Shown: positions 18,584 to 62,605 of the stretch, piece by piece
Position numbering within the stretch: position 1 is the first letter of the stretch
Layout: every line of letters starts with the position of its first letter
DNA from: Ilyobacter polytropus DSM 2926
GTDB taxonomy: Bacteria > Fusobacteriota > Fusobacteriia > Fusobacteriales > Fusobacteriaceae
Direction of reading: 5' to 3'
Assembly: GCF_000165505.1 (NCBI RefSeq)
Contig: NC_014632.1
Coordinates: 372,001 to 436,000 of the forward strand
Length of the DNA stretch: 64,000 bases
Position numbers and translations under genes: made by a program
The notes under the pieces: model-generated
Databases searched by the model: none
Seen by the model: only the letters and a program-made list of their open reading frames with translations
What the model was told of the DNA's origin: nothing

Positions 18584-18600
18584 GGTTTTATTTTTGAATA

Positions 18601-19033
18601 AATTACTGAATTTATCCAAAAGCTGTGTTACTTTCTTTGCTTGCCCAAAGAAAGTAACCAAAGAAAAGGCACCCCTAAAAAATACCTAAAATCACTTCTG
18701 AACTAACTTTCTATTGAAATATAGTCGGTAAACCTCCTTATTTCAATGAAAGTGGATTTCACAAGATGATTTCTTAACGGCATTTTTTAAAGGGGAATTT
18801 AAAATCTTAAATTATTTTTTTTTAAATCTTTTGAAATTCTTTTGGCCATTGATAAAATAAGCGTTAAGAATGACTGAGAGAAATCTCTAGAAAAAATCAA
18901 CTGTCTGAGCGTAGCGAGTTTCGAGTTTTTCTTGGATTTTCAAGGTTATTTAGCTGATTTTTCACAGGCTTGAACTTTTGGTTACTTTTCTTTCAAGAGA
19001 AAAGTAACGAATCCCGATAAATTCAATACTTTA
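18601..19033 (+). repeat. family B element, full copy B1 (MITE-like)
   Basis: A 433-bp non-coding element. It starts AATTACTGAATTTATCC and ends GATAAATTCAATACTTTA, giving terminal inverted repeats of about 12 bp (TGAATTTATC core). Next to the left end is a perfect hairpin GTTACTTTCTTTG/CAAAGAAAGTAAC (loop CTTGCC); next to the right end is GTTACTTTTCT/AGAAAAGTAAC. The near-identical copy B2 lies inverted at 24731-25164. It has no ORF of substance. It fills the acpS to NuoE-like gap. Confidence 0.88.
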
Positions 19034-19079
19034 ATTGAAAAAAAAATTAAAAAGATTAGTTTTAAGAGCAGGAGGAGAT

Positions 19080-24649: not shown

Positions 24650-24730
24650 TAGTTTACTGTGTTTATAAAAAAACAAAGAAGTTCTTGTTTGTTTTGGTTT
24701 TTTAATTCAAGTTGATTTTTTATTTCATGT

Positions 24731-25164
24731 TAAAGTATTGAATTTATCGGGATTCGTTACTTTTCTCTTGAAAGAAAAGTAACCAAAAGTTCAAGCCTGT
24801 GAAAAATCAGCTAAATAACCTTGAAAATCCAAGAAAAACTCGAAACTCGCTACGCTCAGACAGTCGATTTTTTCTAAGGATTTTACTGCAGTTATTTTTA
24901 ACGCTGATTTTGTCAATGGCCAAAAGAATTTCAAAAGATTTAAAGAAAATCATTTAAGATTTTGAATTCCCCCTTTAAAAAATGCAGTTAAGAAATCATC
25001 TTGTGAAATCCACTTTCATTGAAATAAGGAGGTTTGCCGACTATATTTCAATAGAAAGTTAGTTCAGAAAGGATTTTAGGGATTTTTTAGGGGTGCCTTT
25101 TCTTTGGTTACTTTCTTTGGGCAAGCAAAGAAAGTAACACAGCTTTTGGATAAAGTCAGTAATT
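24731..25164 (-). repeat. family B element, full copy B2 (inverted relative to B1)
   Basis: Reverse-complement copy of 18601-19033, matching from TAAAGTATTGAATTTATC at the left to AGCTTTTGGATAAAGTCAGTAATT at the right. It includes both end hairpins, the TCGAAACTCGCTACGCTCAGACAG segment (24839-24864) and the GTCAATGGCCAAAAGAATTTC segment. The copies differ by scattered substitutions. It lies between the orphan promoter and the kinase gene. Confidence 0.88.
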
Positions 25165-25244
25165 TATAAGGAAATATTTAAACTAGAAACTTAATTTTTT
25201 TAATAAATTTAATTTTAAAATTCATGCAGAGGAGGTGCCTGTCT

Positions 25245-27947: not shown

Positions 27948-28353
27948 AATTACTGAATTTACAAGAATATTAGAATCAAGGAATTTTGTCACGAATGAAA
28001 ATCAATGAAAAGCAAAAAAATTAACACGAATAAAGATAAAACCTTTTGGCCACAGAGCATCATAAAAGTGTATGTTGCGCAGAGAAAAAGAGAGAGTTTC
28101 ACAGAGTTAAGACGAAAACTAGATACGAGTTCTTTTGCGAGAGGTTTTCGATCTTTTTTCTTCTGCCATTGACAAAATCAGCGTTAAGAATAACCGCAGT
28201 GAAATCCTTAGAAGAAATCGACTGTTTGAGCGTAGCGAGTTTCGAGTTTTTCTTGGATTTTCAAGGTTATTTAGCTGATTTTTCACGGGCTTGAACTTTT
28301 GGTTACTTTTCTTTCAAGAGAAAAGTAACGGAAGTTTGGATAAATTCAATAAT
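27948..28353 (+). repeat. mosaic A/B repeat element (copy B3)
   Basis: Starts AAATTACTGAATTTA, as family B does, but continues with family A words (TTGTCACGAATG, TTAACACGAATAAAG, TTTTGGCCACAGAG, GAGTTTCACAGAG). It switches near 28130 to the right half of family B (CCATTGACAAAATCAGCGTTAAGAATAACC, GAGCGTAGCGAGTTTCGAG, the GTTACTTTTCT/AGAAAAGTAAC hairpin) and ends GGATAAATTCAATAA. The right end touches the stop codon of the EAL gene at 28354. Confidence 0.82.
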
Positions 28354-51959: not shown

Positions 51960-52007
51960 AATTTGAGTTACTGAGAGTATGAGAAGATTAGAGTCAAAAG
52001 AATTTTT

Positions 52008-52550
52008 GTCACGAATGGACACAGATAAAAGATAAAAAAATTAACACGAATAAGGATAAAACCTTTTTTGGCCACAGAGGGCACGGAGGTAAAAAAAAGA
52101 GTTACACAGAGAAAGATTAAAAGATTTCGTCACGAATGGGCACTAATAAAAGATAGAAAAATTAACACTAATGGGGATAAAACCTTTTGTCCACAGAGTG
52201 CACGGAGGTAAAAAAGAGAGTTACACAGAGAAAGATTAAAAGCTTTTGTCACGGAATGGGCACTAATAAAAGATAAAAAAATTAACATGAATGGGGATAA
52301 AACCTTTTGTCCACAGAGTGCACGGAGGGTAGAGAGAGTTTCACGGAGTTGAGAAATATAAAGTCAAAAGATTTTTTGTCACGAATTACACGAATTGACG
52401 CAAATTCAAAGATAAATGAAAGAACCTTTTTTGTCCACAGAGTGCACGGAGGTAAAAAAAAGAGTTACACAGAGAAAGATTAAAAGCTTTTGTCACGGAA
52501 TGGGCACTAATAAAAGATAAAAAAATTAACACGAATGGGGATAGGATCTA
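52008..52550 (+). repeat. family A tandem array, about 120 bp units
   Basis: Units begin GTCACG at 52008, 52129, 52248, 52378 and 52492 (spacings 121, 119, 130 and 114). Each full unit reads GTCACGAATGGGCACTAATA, AGATAAAAAAATTAACACGAATG, GGATAAAACCTTTT, GTCCACAGAGTGCACGGAGG and GAGTTACACAGAGAAAGATTA. The fourth unit has the variant TTACACGAATTGACGCAAATT; the fifth is partial. The region just before (GAGTTACTGAGAG..., 51964-52007) resembles the left end of the mosaic element at 27948. No gene lies between 51890 and 52800. Confidence 0.85.
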
Positions 52551-54589: not shown

Positions 54590-54766
54590 GTCACAAATTA
54601 CACAAATTTAAAGATAAATAGTAGAACCTTTTTTTGGCCACAGAGGGCACGGAGGATAGGAGAGAGTTTCACAGAGAGGAAAAATATAGAATCAAAGGAT
54701 TTTATCACGAATGGTCACTAATAAAAGAGAAGAAATATCAACACGAATAGGGATAAAACCTTTTTT
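54590..54766 (+). repeat. family A repeat, copies leading into the 161-bp array
   Basis: GTCACAAATTACACAAATTT, AACCTTTTTTTGGCCACAGAGGG, GAGTTTCACAGAG, then ATCACGAATGGTCACTAATA, CAACACGAATAGGGATAAAACC. These are two units of the about 120-bp form, grading directly into the tandem array at 54767. Confidence 0.8.
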
Positions 54767-55412
54767 GGCCACAGAGGGCACAGAGGATAGAGAGAGTTTC
54801 ACGGAGAAATACTAAAAGACATTTATAAATTATGTCAATAAAAAGATTTTCTCTGTGCAGCTCATGTTTAAGACTCTGTGTAACTCTGTGAGCAAAAAAT
54901 ATATAAAAAAAGAAATCAAAAGATTCTGGCCACAGAGGGCACGGAGAATAGAGAGAGTTTCACGGAGAAATACTAAAAGACATTTATAAATTATGTCAAT
55001 AAAAAGATTTTCTCTGTGCAGCTCATGTTTAAGACTCTGTGTAACTCTGTGGGCAAAAAATATATAAAAAAAGAAATCAAAAGATTCTGGCCACAGAGGG
55101 CACGGAGGGTAAGAGAGAGTTTCACGGAGAAATACTAAAAGACATTTATAAATTATGTCAATAAAAAGATTATCTCTGTGCAGCTCATGTTTAAGACTCT
55201 GTGTAACTCTGTGAGCAAAAAATATATAAAAAAAGAAATCAAAAGATTCTGGCCACAGAGGGCACGGAGGATAAGAGAGAGTTTCACGGAGAAATACTAA
55301 AAGACATTTATAAATTATGTCAATAAAAAGATTTTCTCTGTGCAGCTCATGTTTAAGACTCTGTGTAACTCTGTGAGCAAAAAATATATAAAAAAAGAAA
55401 TCAAAAGATTCT
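54767..55412 (+). repeat. four tandem 161-162 bp hairpin units (family A)
   Basis: Units start at GGCCACAGAG 54767, 54928, 55089 and 55251, with the next GGCCACAGAG at 55413. Each has a left arm (GGCCACAGAGGGCACGGAG, then AGAGAGTTTCACGGAGAAA), a centre (ACTAAAAGACATTTATAAAT and ATGTCAATAAAAAG), a right arm (TTCTCTGTGCAGCTCATG, then AAGACTCTGTGTAACTCTG and TGAGCA) and a tail (AAAATATATAAAAAAAGAAA, then TCAAAAGATTCT). The right arm is largely the reverse complement of the left, so each unit can fold into one long imperfect hairpin. Confidence 0.92.
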
Positions 55413-55520
55413 GGCCACAGAGTGTCACAGAGGCTTTCTTGTGCAACTTGGATAGATTTTTTAAAAAAACTATACACTATTAAAAATTAGATAATTTTTT
55501 TTTAATAAAGTGATAAAATA

Positions 55521-59080: not shown

Positions 59081-59241
59081 AAAATATATAAAAAAGAAAT
59101 CAAAAGATTCTGGCCACAGAGTGTCACAGAGGAAAAGAGAGAGTTTCCCAGAGAAATACTAAAAGATATTTATAAATTATGTCAATAAAAAGATTTTCTC
59201 TGTGCAGCTCATGTTTAAGACTCTGTGTAACTCTGCGAGCT
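59081..59241 (+). repeat. single family A hairpin unit between tolC-like and hlyD-like genes
   Basis: Same unit as in the 54767 array, beginning with its tail (AAAAAATATATAAAAAAGAA) directly after the TolC stop, then GGCCACAGAGTGTCACAGAGG, the GACATT-like centre (GATATTTATAAATTATGTC) and TTCTCTGTGCAGCTCATG, CTCTGTGTAACTCTG. Confidence 0.88.
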
Positions 59242-59298
59242 AAGGTTTTTTTAGGGAATATGAAGTTTTTGAAGATACTGGAATATTGGGAGTGAAAG

Positions 59299-60627
59299 AT
59301 GAAGAAAAAGTTGATAATAGGAGGGGCTGTATTTTTGATGGTCCTGGGGGTAGCTGGATTTGCCCTAGATGGCAAGTCTGATGAAAAAAAAGTGAGGCTG
59401 GAAAAAATAGTCAAGGGAGATATGGAAGAGAGTCTTGTATTTGAAGGGATAGTAGAGCCAAAGGAGACTATGCCTATATATATAGAGGCCTCTGCTGTAG
59501 TGGACAAGATCCTAGTAGACGAGGGAAGTGAGGTCTCTGCAGGGGATTCGCTGCTAGAATTCAGTGCAGGGTCAAAATTAGAACTAGAGAGAGAACTGCA
59601 GATGCTAGACCTTGACATGAAAAGTGTGGAGATGCAGATAGAAGATCTAAACTCAGGGTCTACTAAGCTAGAACTTGATAATAAACAGCTAGAAATAAAG
59701 AGCCTAGAAGAAGAGATAAAAGGTATGAACAGAAATCTAAAGGTAGTGTCCTTTGAGGCACAGACTTTTCGTCAGCAGGCTGATGTAAAGATGGACCTAC
59801 TGAAGCAGCAGGGAGTCTCCTCAGTAGAGGCAAATGAAGCCTTAAGTGATGCCAACAGAAAAGAGATGGAACTAGAAGATCTGAAAACCAGCCTAGATCT
59901 ATCGAGACAAAAATATGAACTTATGGTTTTAAGTTATGATAGATTGAAAAGAGAGTTAAATTTACAGGAAAATAATATAAAAGGAAACTTAAAGAAGTTC
60001 GCCCTAAAAAGAGATGACCTGGCAGAGAAACTGGCCAAGGTGGGGGAACCATTGAAATCACCTATAGACGGGATAATAACTGGCATATACATAGAACAGG
60101 GAACACCAGTAAGGGCTGGATCCAGACTTATGGAGATATCCAAGATGGGTGAGAATAAGATAAAAATGGAGATACCTGTGTATCAGGCTAAATGGGTTAT
60201 CCCAGGACAAAAGGCAACTATAACTATGAGGGAGTCTGCAGAAGATGTAACTTATGATGGGAAAGTAGAAAGTGTATCTAAGACTGCCAAGGTTGTAAAA
60301 ACAGGAAATTATGAGGACAGGATTATAGAGGTGGAAGTATCTCTAGAAAATTCTCAAGGTCTAAAACCTGGATATGCAACTACTGTGGAGATAGCAGGAA
60401 ACAGTAAGGACCAGGTAAAATTAGTGGACTCTATAGCGGTAATGGAAGAAAACGGAAAAAACTATGTCTATGTCTATGAGGGAGATACGGTAAAGAAGAC
60501 CCTTGTAGAGATAGGAGCCAAAACTTTATCTAAGTATGAGGTGCTAAACCTTGCTGAAGGAACAGAGATAGTCTTAAACAGCTACCAGGTCCAAGACGGT
60601 GACAAGGTAGAAGTCTTACAAGATTAA
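59299..60627 (+). CDS. HlyD/MacA-type membrane-fusion (adaptor) protein
   Basis: 442 residues. N-terminal membrane anchor (LIIGGAVFLMVLGVAGFAL), a lipoyl-like segment (VVDKILVDEGSEVSAGDSLL), a long coiled-coil region (about 95-225, rich in Leu/Glu/Lys), a second lipoyl half (PLKSPIDGIITGIYIEQGT) and a beta-barrel (VIPGQKATITMRE). It links an inner-membrane pump to the TolC-like channel. Flanked on both sides by family A repeats. Confidence 0.9.
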   Translation: MKKKLIIGGAVFLMVLGVAGFALDGKSDEKKVRLEKIVKGDMEESLVFEGIVEPKETMPIYIEASAVVDKILVDEGSEVSAGDSLLEFSAGSKLELERELQMLDLDMKSVEMQIEDLNSGSTKLELDNKQLEIKSLEEEIKGMNRNLKVVSFEAQTFRQQADVKMDLLKQQGVSSVEANEALSDANRKEMELEDLKTSLDLSRQKYELMVLSYDRLKRELNLQENNIKGNLKKFALKRDDLAEKLAKVGEPLKSPIDGIITGIYIEQGTPVRAGSRLMEISKMGENKIKMEIPVYQAKWVIPGQKATITMRESAEDVTYDGKVESVSKTAKVVKTGNYEDRIIEVEVSLENSQGLKPGYATTVEIAGNSKDQVKLVDSIAVMEENGKNYVYVYEGDTVKKTLVEIGAKTLSKYEVLNLAEGTEIVLNSYQVQDGDKVEVLQD

Positions 60628-60638
60628 AAAACTTTTTT

Positions 60639-60686
60639 GGTCACAGAGTTCCACAGAGGGAAAGAGAGAGGTTCACAGAGAAAAGA
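60639..60686 (+). repeat. family A left arm upstream of the GxxExxY gene
   Basis: GGTCACAGAGTTCCACAGAGG, then AGAGAGAGGTTCACAGAGAAAAG. Only the left-arm words; the centre and right arm are replaced by the GxxExxY gene 20 bases later. Confidence 0.78.
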
Positions 60687-60705
60687 TAATATAAGAGGTG
60701 GACTT

Positions 60706-61086
60706 ATGGAATTAAATGAGCTGACACAAAAAATTATTGGTTGTGCAATAGAAGTCCATAAAACTTTAGGACCCGGGATGCTTGAAAGTACCTATGAGGA
60801 ATGTCTGAAATTTGAACTGGAAAAAAAAGGTATAAAAGTTGAACAGCAAAAAGAATTGCCGTTAATTTATAAAGGACTGTTAATTGAAAATGCTTATAAG
60901 TTGGACCTGATAATTGAGGATAAGATAATATTGGAGTTAAAATCGGTTGAAAAAATTAAAGGTGTGCATAAGGCACAATTATTGACCTATCTTAAATTGT
61001 CAAATAAAGAGCTGGGGCTATTAATTAATTTCAACGTGGATCTATTGAAAGATGGAATAACAAGGTTAAAAAATAGGGGAAAATAG
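60706..61086 (+). CDS. GxxExxY family protein (PD-(D/E)XK nuclease-like)
   Basis: 126 residues from ATG 60706 (AGAGGTGG upstream); a longer in-frame start at 60637 would translate repeat DNA and is rejected. The family name motif is GMLESTY (G24, E27, Y30) in LGPGMLESTYEECL. Downstream, LDLIIED (Asp 67) and ILELKSV (Glu 77, Lys 79) give the D-x(n)-E-x-K layout of PD-(D/E)XK enzymes. Family function is unknown (TIGR04256/PF13366 as I recall). It splits the HlyD and MacB genes and sits between family A repeats, suggesting insertion of a gene-bearing repeat element into the exporter operon. Confidence 0.88.
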   Translation: MELNELTQKIIGCAIEVHKTLGPGMLESTYEECLKFELEKKGIKVEQQKELPLIYKGLLIENAYKLDLIIEDKIILELKSVEKIKGVHKAQLLTYLKLSNKELGLLINFNVDLLKDGITRLKNRGK

Positions 61087-61096
61087 AATAATTTTT

Positions 61097-61225
61097 GCCA
61101 CAGAGTTACGCAGAGGAAAAGAGAGAGTTACGCAGAGAAATACTAAAAGATATTTATAAATTATGTCAATAAAAAGATTTTCTCTGTGCAGCTTATGTTT
61201 AAGACTCTGTGTAGCTCTGTGAGCT
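61097..61225 (+). repeat. family A hairpin unit downstream of the GxxExxY gene
   Basis: GCCACAGAGTTACGCAGAGG, GAGAGTTACGCAGAGAAATA, then the centre AAAGATATTTATAAATTATG and the right arm TTCTCTGTGCAGCTTATG, CTCTGTGTAGCTCTGTGAGC. A complete unit 10 bases after the stop codon. Confidence 0.88.
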
Positions 61226-61246
61226 AAAAAAGGTTTGGGGGTAGAG

Positions 61247-62335
61247 ATGAGTTTCTGGATGGCTTGGAAGATGATATGGGAGAATAAAAAGCGGAGCCTT
61301 TTTTCCCTCTGTGGGGTGCTCATGGGGATAAGCTCTATAATAGTTATATTTTCCCTGGCTGAGGGTGGGAAGGACCTTATAAAAAGCGATCTTTCCAGCC
61401 TGGCTGAAAACAGGGTAATGATAGGGGGAGAAAACTTATCTGTAAGAGACGGAAACTTACTAGAAGATATTCCCTTTGTGAAATATGCCTTTTTTCCAGA
61501 TGCCAAAAGGGATACAGGTGAACTTATCCTTACAGGCTACTCACAAAAATCCCTTTTAGCTATGGGATATCCCAGCAATCTAAAAGACAGAGAGATACTC
61601 CTCGAGGAAAATACTTCCAAGAAACTCTATGGTGATGCTGACCCAAGTGGTAAAGAGATAGAATTGGGTGAAAGAAAAGAAAAGTATATTATCCAAGGTG
61701 TCTATAGAGAAAAAAATCCTCTGGAATCTGTAAATGATAGGGAAACTGGAATAACCTCTCTCTCAAATTTAGCGAATATGACAGGCTTAAATAGGTTTTC
61801 TAAGGTTGTTGTGTCCTTTTATGAGGAAGAAGACGGAGAAAAACTGGCTCCCTTGATAATAGACAGGCTAAAAAATGTCCACGGAGGACGGGGAGACTAT
61901 ATTATCATGGAAAACTCAGGAAAGTATAAGAAGGTAGAGAAGATAAAAAATACTCTGAATATATTCCTAGCTGCCATAGGCTTGGTGGCTCTCATCATGG
62001 GTGGACTTGGAATAAGCAACCTCATGGCGGCCATGGTAAGGGAAAGGACTCCACATATAGGAATACTCCGTGCCATGGGGGCAGGGAAAAACTTCATCAT
62101 GACCACTTTCCTTATAGAGGCTGCCTGTATATCAGTAACAGGGGGAATCATAGGGATAATAGCAGGGGTAAATGGATCAAAAGTCATCGGGAAGCTTATA
62201 GAGGTGCCTCCGATATTCATGGGGAAACATATTGTTATGACTCTTGTTGTGTCGGGTTTACTTGGGGTGGCCTTTGGGATATTGCCTGCCAAGAAAGCGG
62301 CTGACATGGATACTGTGGAGGCTCTGAGGGTATAA
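61247..62335 (+). CDS. MacB/FtsX-type ABC transporter permease without ATPase
   Basis: 362 residues from ATG 61247 (TTTGGGGGT upstream). N-terminal membrane segment (SLCGVLMGISSIIVIF), a MacB periplasmic core domain, then three C-terminal segments including the FtsX-type block GISNLMAAMVRERTPHIGIL and RAMGAGK. MacB normally has its ATPase fused at the N-terminus, and split systems have it next door; neither is here, so a partner ATPase must be elsewhere or the exporter is incomplete. Confidence 0.88.
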   Translation: MSFWMAWKMIWENKKRSLFSLCGVLMGISSIIVIFSLAEGGKDLIKSDLSSLAENRVMIGGENLSVRDGNLLEDIPFVKYAFFPDAKRDTGELILTGYSQKSLLAMGYPSNLKDREILLEENTSKKLYGDADPSGKEIELGERKEKYIIQGVYREKNPLESVNDRETGITSLSNLANMTGLNRFSKVVVSFYEEEDGEKLAPLIIDRLKNVHGGRGDYIIMENSGKYKKVEKIKNTLNIFLAAIGLVALIMGGLGISNLMAAMVRERTPHIGILRAMGAGKNFIMTTFLIEAACISVTGGIIGIIAGVNGSKVIGKLIEVPPIFMGKHIVMTLVVSGLLGVAFGILPAKKAADMDTVEALRV

Positions 62336-62350
62336 GAGATAAAAGACTTT

Positions 62351-62605
62351 GTCACGAATTAAAAGATGAGTAATAGAATCTTTTTTGGTCACAGAGTTTC
62401 ACAGAGGAGAAGAGAGAGTTTCACGGAGAAAGATAAAGATAAAAAGATCTCGTCACGAATGTGCACGAATAAAAGATAAAGAAACTATGGTTTAGTCGCA
62501 GATTACACAAATTTTCACGAATTAAAAGATAAGTAATAGAATCTTTTTTGGTCACAGAGTTTCAGAGAGGAGAAGAGAGAGCTTCACAGAGAAAGATAAA
62601 GAATA
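62351..62605 (+). repeat. family A repeats after the MacB-like gene
   Basis: Two rounds of GTCACGAATTAAAAGATGAG / ACGAATTAAAAGATAAGTAA, AATAGAATCTTTTTTGGTCACAGAG, TTTCACAGAGGAGAAGAGAG and TTCACGGAGAAAGATAAAG. Starts 16 bases after the stop. Confidence 0.8.

Follow-up and report, generated by a model that had tools for sequence, protein, structure and literature searches.

GxxExxY nuclease genes within inverted arms of tandem 7-mers: a probable minimal mobile element with MITE-like gene-less copies

Genes of the GxxExxY family, with the short repeats that flank many of them, probably constitute a minimal mobile element composed of a nuclease and its arms, accompanied by MITE-like derivatives and resembling the RAYT/REPIN system but built on an unrelated enzyme. 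This reading comes from comparative sequence analysis starting at a 64,000-nt stretch of the genome of Ilyobacter polytropus DSM 2926, referred to here as the window. The initial annotation of the window had suggested that its gene-bearing repeat copy was the autonomous member of a repeat/enzyme system, a suggestion supported by MITE-like gene-less copies and by insertion polymorphism in other genomes.

The window carries the sole GxxExxY gene of I. polytropus, a PDDEXK_3 nuclease gene on the forward strand (60706..61086; ATG at 60706, stop codon at 61084-61086) encoding 126 amino acids with the residues D67/E77/K79. The protein scores 157 bits against TIGR04256 (curated cut-off 35) and 152 bits against PF13366 PDDEXK_3 (cut-off 22). 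Upstream on the same strand lies a left arm (60639..60684) with three CACAGAG heptamers (60642-60648, 60652-60658 and 60674-60680), the last ending 25 nt ahead of the ATG. A complete hairpin unit (61097..61225, forward strand), made of an inner left arm and a right arm, begins about 10 nt 3' of the stop codon. The 3' half of this unit serves as the element's right arm (61182-61221) and pairs with the left arm of the gene (inverted-repeat z 12.9). The hairpin folds much better than shuffled sequence (DNA z -4.5, RNA z -8.4). An RND/HlyD-type adaptor gene (59299..60627) precedes the element and a MacB-like permease gene (61250..62335) follows it, both on the same strand as the GxxExxY gene, within an exopolysaccharide/exporter operon whose run also includes chain-length determinant, autokinase, Cps4B-like and TolC genes. 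That the gene is packaged in arms is near certain. Coordinates and profiles confirm the annotated arrangement, in which the gene lies between a repeat left arm and a complete hairpin inside an exporter operon; the order is left arm, gene and complete hairpin, and the gene is not inserted into one hairpin.

Related repeats are abundant nearby, all on the forward strand. They comprise a gene-less hairpin copy between the TolC and adaptor genes (59110..59243), four tandem gene-less copies with a period of 162 nt (54766..55422), a tandem composite array of CACGAAT and CACAGAG arms with a period of about 120 nt (52004..52543), and two left-arm-like copies 3' of the permease gene (62377..62605). In the window, CACAGAG occurs 51 times compared with 4.6 expected, and CACAGAG-n1-3-CACAGAG 11 times compared with 0.00 expected, counts that rule out a chance origin. 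Six full hairpins are present in the genome, one at 59.1 kb of the window, four in tandem at 54.77-55.42 kb and one after the gene, all within 6.5 kb of the gene locus. The annotated claim that the same unit occurs elsewhere without a gene is borne out by five other full copies, but almost all gene-less hairpins of this genome are local; elsewhere, partial arm-like copies are dispersed, often as CACGAAT/CACAGAG composites, and no full hairpin was found. A second dispersed repeat family (GTTACTTTCTTTGCTTGCCCAAAGAAAGTAAC), with inverted copies of 288/166 nt, was observed at window positions 18589-19046, 24718-25176 and 28165-28330, and its copies often adjoin CACAGAG composites. The two gaps of the exporter operon carry CACAGAG-type units in the window genome and in G042, and CACGAAT-type units in the sister species G043. 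In the latter, the gap between the TolC and adaptor genes holds a CACGAAT-type gene-less unit where the window genome has the CACAGAG type, and the site of the window's CACAGAG-type gene-bearing element is taken by a CACGAAT-type element with its own, different GxxExxY gene (locus L155, compared with window 59090-61250).

Association between GxxExxY genes and inverted arms was assessed on genes gathered blind to their flanks from Fusobacteria, from a contig scan of genomes and as further copies in those genomes. The main set contained 82 near-full genes, drawn from Fusobacteria and from 20 genomes belonging to other phyla. Arms were scored without any motif, by local alignment of the upstream flank to the reverse-complemented downstream flank, with z calculated against dinucleotide shuffles and a threshold of z>4. 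Inverted arms were detected around 52 of the 82 genes compared with 1 of 37 control ORFs (Mann-Whitney p 1e-11). The first set gave 26/38 GxxExxY genes vs 2/114 neighbour ORFs at the same threshold, and a replicate in the Chryseobacterium genus gave arms in 31/40 loci at 12 sites; the statistical link across genomes, set beforehand as a test, therefore holds. In a small plasmid/chromid set, clear arms were seen in about half of the cases, for example in Bacteroides finegoldii (radA-GxxExxY-FAD) and Sphingomonas (fabD-GxxExxY-fabG). In the reverse test, tight inverted repeats enclose 21 of the 517 ORFs of the examined loci; 13 of these are GxxExxY genes, and the remaining eight are mostly operon genes between two adjacent elements.

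Contrary to the first annotation, the system extends beyond CACAGAG/CACGAAT, because each GxxExxY lineage carries its own 7-mer, and a link restricted to these two motifs was rejected. Although the association is general, there are GxxExxY genes that lack arms and are passed on vertically. No arms were detected around about a third of the main set of 82, and an armless orthologue, probably domesticated, occupies one conserved context in 28 genomes of the Chryseobacterium genus (L088, L181-L209). Chryseobacterium has about four GxxExxY genes per genome, with a match above the cut-off in 138 of 148 genomes. Another dense case is a polysaccharide locus (L151; G055:C33:1-12000) where five GxxExxY genes or fragments, mostly with different arm 7-mers, lie within ~9 kb. 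Two further GxxExxY genes (L033, L047) have a different repeat vocabulary (AGTCGGACTT / GACGCAGACT), outside the general 7-mer.

A typical arm consists of two to three direct 7-mers of the form C-R-Y-N-N-A-(G/T) with a spacing of 8-10 nt, equal in both arms in most clean cases. Several 7-mers can be present in one genome, as in Botrimarina G099 (CGCGGAG, CGCAAAG, CACGAAG, CGCCAAG, CACGAAT and CGCAGAT). The left arm usually starts near the stop codon of the preceding gene, at a median distance of 11 nt, and the right arm is usually followed within a short distance by the start of the next gene. Elements lie 3' of a co-directional gene in 72 of 77 cases, compared with 64 of 84 same-strand adjacent control pairs.

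The type of arm follows the lineage of the protein. A fixed labelling rule (...AG vs ...AT) assigned 57 of the 82 genes, and on the protein tree these labels require 3 G/T changes, compared with a mean of 19 and a minimum of 12 after shuffling. Within-genome shuffles of the 57 labels gave a mean of 13.8 and a minimum of 8 changes. With Chryseobacterium sites added (66 labelled), 4 changes were counted vs 22 shuffled, and after the C-terminus was trimmed, since the right arm can encode that end of the protein, 5 changes vs 21.5. Arm similarity also increases with protein identity (Mantel r 0.22, p 0.001). Some correlation is expected if arms and gene are inherited together as a single linked piece of DNA; however, class agreement at 35-50% protein identity points to constraint, as free-running arms of 20-30 nt should have diverged. 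The residues that best separate the arm classes cluster at 110-115, with 15, 25 and 28 in addition, a separation confounded by phylogeny. Altogether, these comparisons suggest with high confidence that arms are paired with protein lineage.

Repeat populations point in the same direction. At least three repeat pairs were found in 10 of 12 gene-bearing but 4 of 86 gene-less genomes of Fusobacteria (Fisher p 4e-9, with kinship ignored), in agreement with the initial expectation that repeat number would track gene presence. In this phylum, the dominant pair is often of the same type as the gene; G053 has 2 CACAGAG and 28 CACGAAT pairs, G057 has 0 and 22, respectively, and in G000 CACAGAG pairs far outnumber CACGAAT pairs. 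Across the 20 other genomes, both CACGAAT and CGCAAAG pairs are commoner with the cognate gene (p 0.003 each). Fusobacterial genome G040 is an exception to this tracking, having 20 CACGAAT and 3 CACAGAG pairs with no GxxExxY match, which may reflect gene loss, an assembly gap or another mobiliser. Repeats with no gene detected were also found in G044, G051 and G056, and GxxExxY genes without CACAGAG/CACGAAT repeats in G062 and G097. Repeat-bearing genomes lacking the gene and gene-bearing genomes lacking repeats had been named as evidence that would count against the system; for the CACAGAG and CACGAAT types such exceptions occur alongside the statistical link. In Niabella G104, 67 CACGAAT pairs were counted; among the pairs listed, the spacing is 8 nt, matching that of L125, the copy with a gene, and many of the pairs examined are compact gene-less elements consisting of left arm, spacer and right arm. 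Dispersed gene-less copies occur on both strands.

Evidence for mobility is provided by related copies in different contexts. Two near-identical elements of one Niabella genome (L112 and L123) share homology confined to -48..+29, that is, between the arms, and homology likewise ends at the arms in the pairs L037/L049 and L048/L057. In a relative (G274), the L123 site is uninterrupted, without arms and gene, and its flanks are about 90% identical. The L112 site is uninterrupted in seven congeners at about 75% identity, and gain of the element appears the simpler reading. The exact insertion ends are not fixed by these comparisons, because L112 was compared at ~75% identity and, at L123, the sequences also differ outside the arms, by 22 and 14 nt. 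From the two sites in one MAG and the boundary comparisons, it can be proposed with good confidence that arms and gene move as a unit. A Chryseobacterium site (L131) was rejected as an insertion test; it is filled in many species and holds arm or 3'-gene remnants in others, and so shows decay better than insertion. Target-site duplications at p<=0.02 were seen in 4 of 61 cases, none consistent, and the pattern differs from that of a classical DDE transposon. L123 has a possible 4-nt duplication (TACT), and a 24-nt direct repeat flanking L107 looks like local duplication rather than target-site duplication. A phage origin was rejected after searches of phages and viral contigs gave no match, the viral-contig search being sensitive to close relatives only.

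The catalytic residues D67/E77/K79 proposed in the annotation are invariant in an alignment of 76 sequences, as are E27 and N108, and Q91 and Y95 are nearly so. A structure model of the window protein (pLDDT 96.8) has as its best PDB match Cas4 SSO0001 (E 4e-4, TM 0.51) and is also close to lambda exonuclease and LHK-Exo, a RecB-like arrangement. The protein thus has the residues and fold of PD-(D/E)XK enzymes, and the invariant residues together with the Cas4/lambda-exonuclease-like model predict that the catalytic machinery is present. Profile and structure searches with the window protein matched nuclease families alone, with no Y1 (HUH) tyrosine transposase, and no DDE transposase lies in the element, the PDDEXK_3 gene being the sole ORF within the arms. 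Membership of a known defence family was rejected, weak Cas4 similarity being the only resemblance. No role is assigned to GxxExxY proteins in the open-licence literature searched, an absence that is weak evidence of novelty; PF13366 receives passing mention only, and TIGR04256, PDDEXK_3 and the arm 7-mers were not found there.

It is proposed that the element has terminal inverted arms, in which 7-mers are repeated in tandem at intervals of about one helical turn, and that these arms enclose a single RecB/Cas4-like nuclease gene. The nuclease would bind its cognate 7-mers and cut at them, the substrate probably being arms in extruded or single-stranded form. Cutting could free or copy the element, or breaks could drive gene conversion between arm copies, and host repair or replication would finish integration, leaving no consistent target-site duplication. 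Insertion would occur mostly into intergenic gaps of co-directional genes, whose transcript would also express the nuclease, while gene-less copies would be moved in trans and copies would decay or become domesticated. Action of the nuclease on its own arms is likely, since arms that match the protein lineage and mobile-element behaviour with enzyme-less copies suggest that the enzyme probably recognises and mobilises these repeats.

Alternatively, the arms could be spread by other machinery, such as replication slippage, homologous recombination or an unrelated enzyme, with the nuclease gene carried as cargo, for example for defence or addiction. This reading, considered unlikely, would accommodate the persistence of repeats in genomes without the gene, the resemblance of tandem hairpin arrays to local duplication, and the existence of four-helix-bundle genes that, with no nuclease, are enclosed by comparable inverted tandem repeats at loci of a similar kind. 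However, it does not readily explain why arm class agrees with the protein tree, also inside genomes that carry several types, why repeat number tracks the cognate gene, or why GxxExxY genes dominate the ORFs with tight inverted repeats, most of the others being operon genes between neighbouring elements.

Two other readings leave mobility aside or assign a benefit to the host. Transcribed hairpins might protect, terminate or process operon mRNA, with an enzyme that acts on or regulates RNA and elements that are not mobile. The very stable RNA hairpin, the preference for positions 3' of co-directional genes and the adjacency of arms to stop codons and the next start would fit this very improbable explanation, but relatives have empty sites, gene-less copies are dispersed on both strands, the fold is that of Cas4/lambda-exonuclease-like DNA nucleases, and an Rfam search of the element returned no family. 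Finally, hosts might retain nuclease and repeats as a means of breaking and rearranging operons, those for polysaccharides among them, as could be imagined from the concentration of fusobacterial genes and repeats in polysaccharide loci and from the different element types found at the same exporter-operon site in different species. Such a role is extremely unlikely; elsewhere, elements lie in unrelated operons (radA, fabD-fabG), and the patchy distribution of elements, together with copies in decay, speaks against a consistent benefit to the host.

The preferred reading, a nuclease-plus-arms mobile element, can be compared with known systems. RAYTs encode a Y1 transposase, are flanked by inverted REPs with which they co-evolve, and are correlated with REP abundance (PMC2817692), and REPINs are gene-less doublets (PMC3116915). 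GxxExxY elements similarly have a single enzyme gene in inverted repeats, co-variation of enzyme and repeat, repeat abundance that tracks the gene, and gene-less hairpin doublets in extragenic space, so the analogy drawn in the initial annotation is apt. They differ in that the enzyme is a RecB/Cas4-like PD-(D/E)XK protein instead of a Y1 tyrosine transposase and the arms are two to three spaced direct 7-mers instead of one GTAG/CGTC-tagged palindrome. Because every RAYT/REPIN feature except the enzyme was found, the element would work like RAYT/REPIN without being a member. Terminal inverted repeats, autonomous and gene-less forms, and insertion polymorphism are shared with MITEs and IS-type transposons, but no DDE, HUH or site-specific recombinase and no consistent target-site duplication was found. 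Free-standing homing endonucleases, including PD-(D/E)XK and EDxHD types, are small selfish nuclease genes that may spread via break repair. The GxxExxY gene differs in lying inside terminal inverted arms, in having dispersed gene-less copies and in occupying intergenic gaps instead of a conserved recognition site. The fold, catalytic D-ExK and Q and Y motif are shared with Cas4, lambda exonuclease and the RecB nuclease domain, but the GxxExxY protein is half the size and has no helicase, and no CRISPR genes were found among the examined neighbours of GxxExxY genes. The IVS of 23S rRNA with its S23 protein in Coxiella is likewise an element of about 0.4 kb with a small ORF and has been called selfish (PMC4990558); it differs in its rRNA-specific site and in encoding a four-helix-bundle protein, not a nuclease. 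Four-helix-bundle (TIGR02436) genes were also observed near polysaccharide genes (L320, L322, L323, L324, L327), including one in the I. polytropus genome 13.8 kb past the window end (C1:449760-450080). Around them are tandem repeats built from other units, such as GATAGTTAATAGTTG and TTTTCAACTGGCAACT, with clear inverted arms in 3 of 8, and these genes and repeats are possibly a parallel gene/repeat system.

Several phyla have abundant short repeats of the GxxExxY-arm type for which there is no explanation. Whether GxxExxY elements represent an unrecognised, phylum-spanning class of mobile element, with a RecB/Cas4-type PD-(D/E)XK nuclease as sole enzyme reading lineage-specific tandem 7-mer arms, and account for many intergenic repeats of the CACAGAG, CGCAAAG, CACGAAT, CGCAGAT and CATTAAG types, is evenly balanced on present comparisons. 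The armless Chryseobacterium orthologue is of interest for its host role. Should the pairing prove real, an orphan family of nucleases and a widespread class of repeats would explain each other, RAYT/REPIN would be joined by a nuclease-only class of mobile element, and a DNA-recognition code could be sought in a ready-made collection of natural protein / 7-mer pairs.
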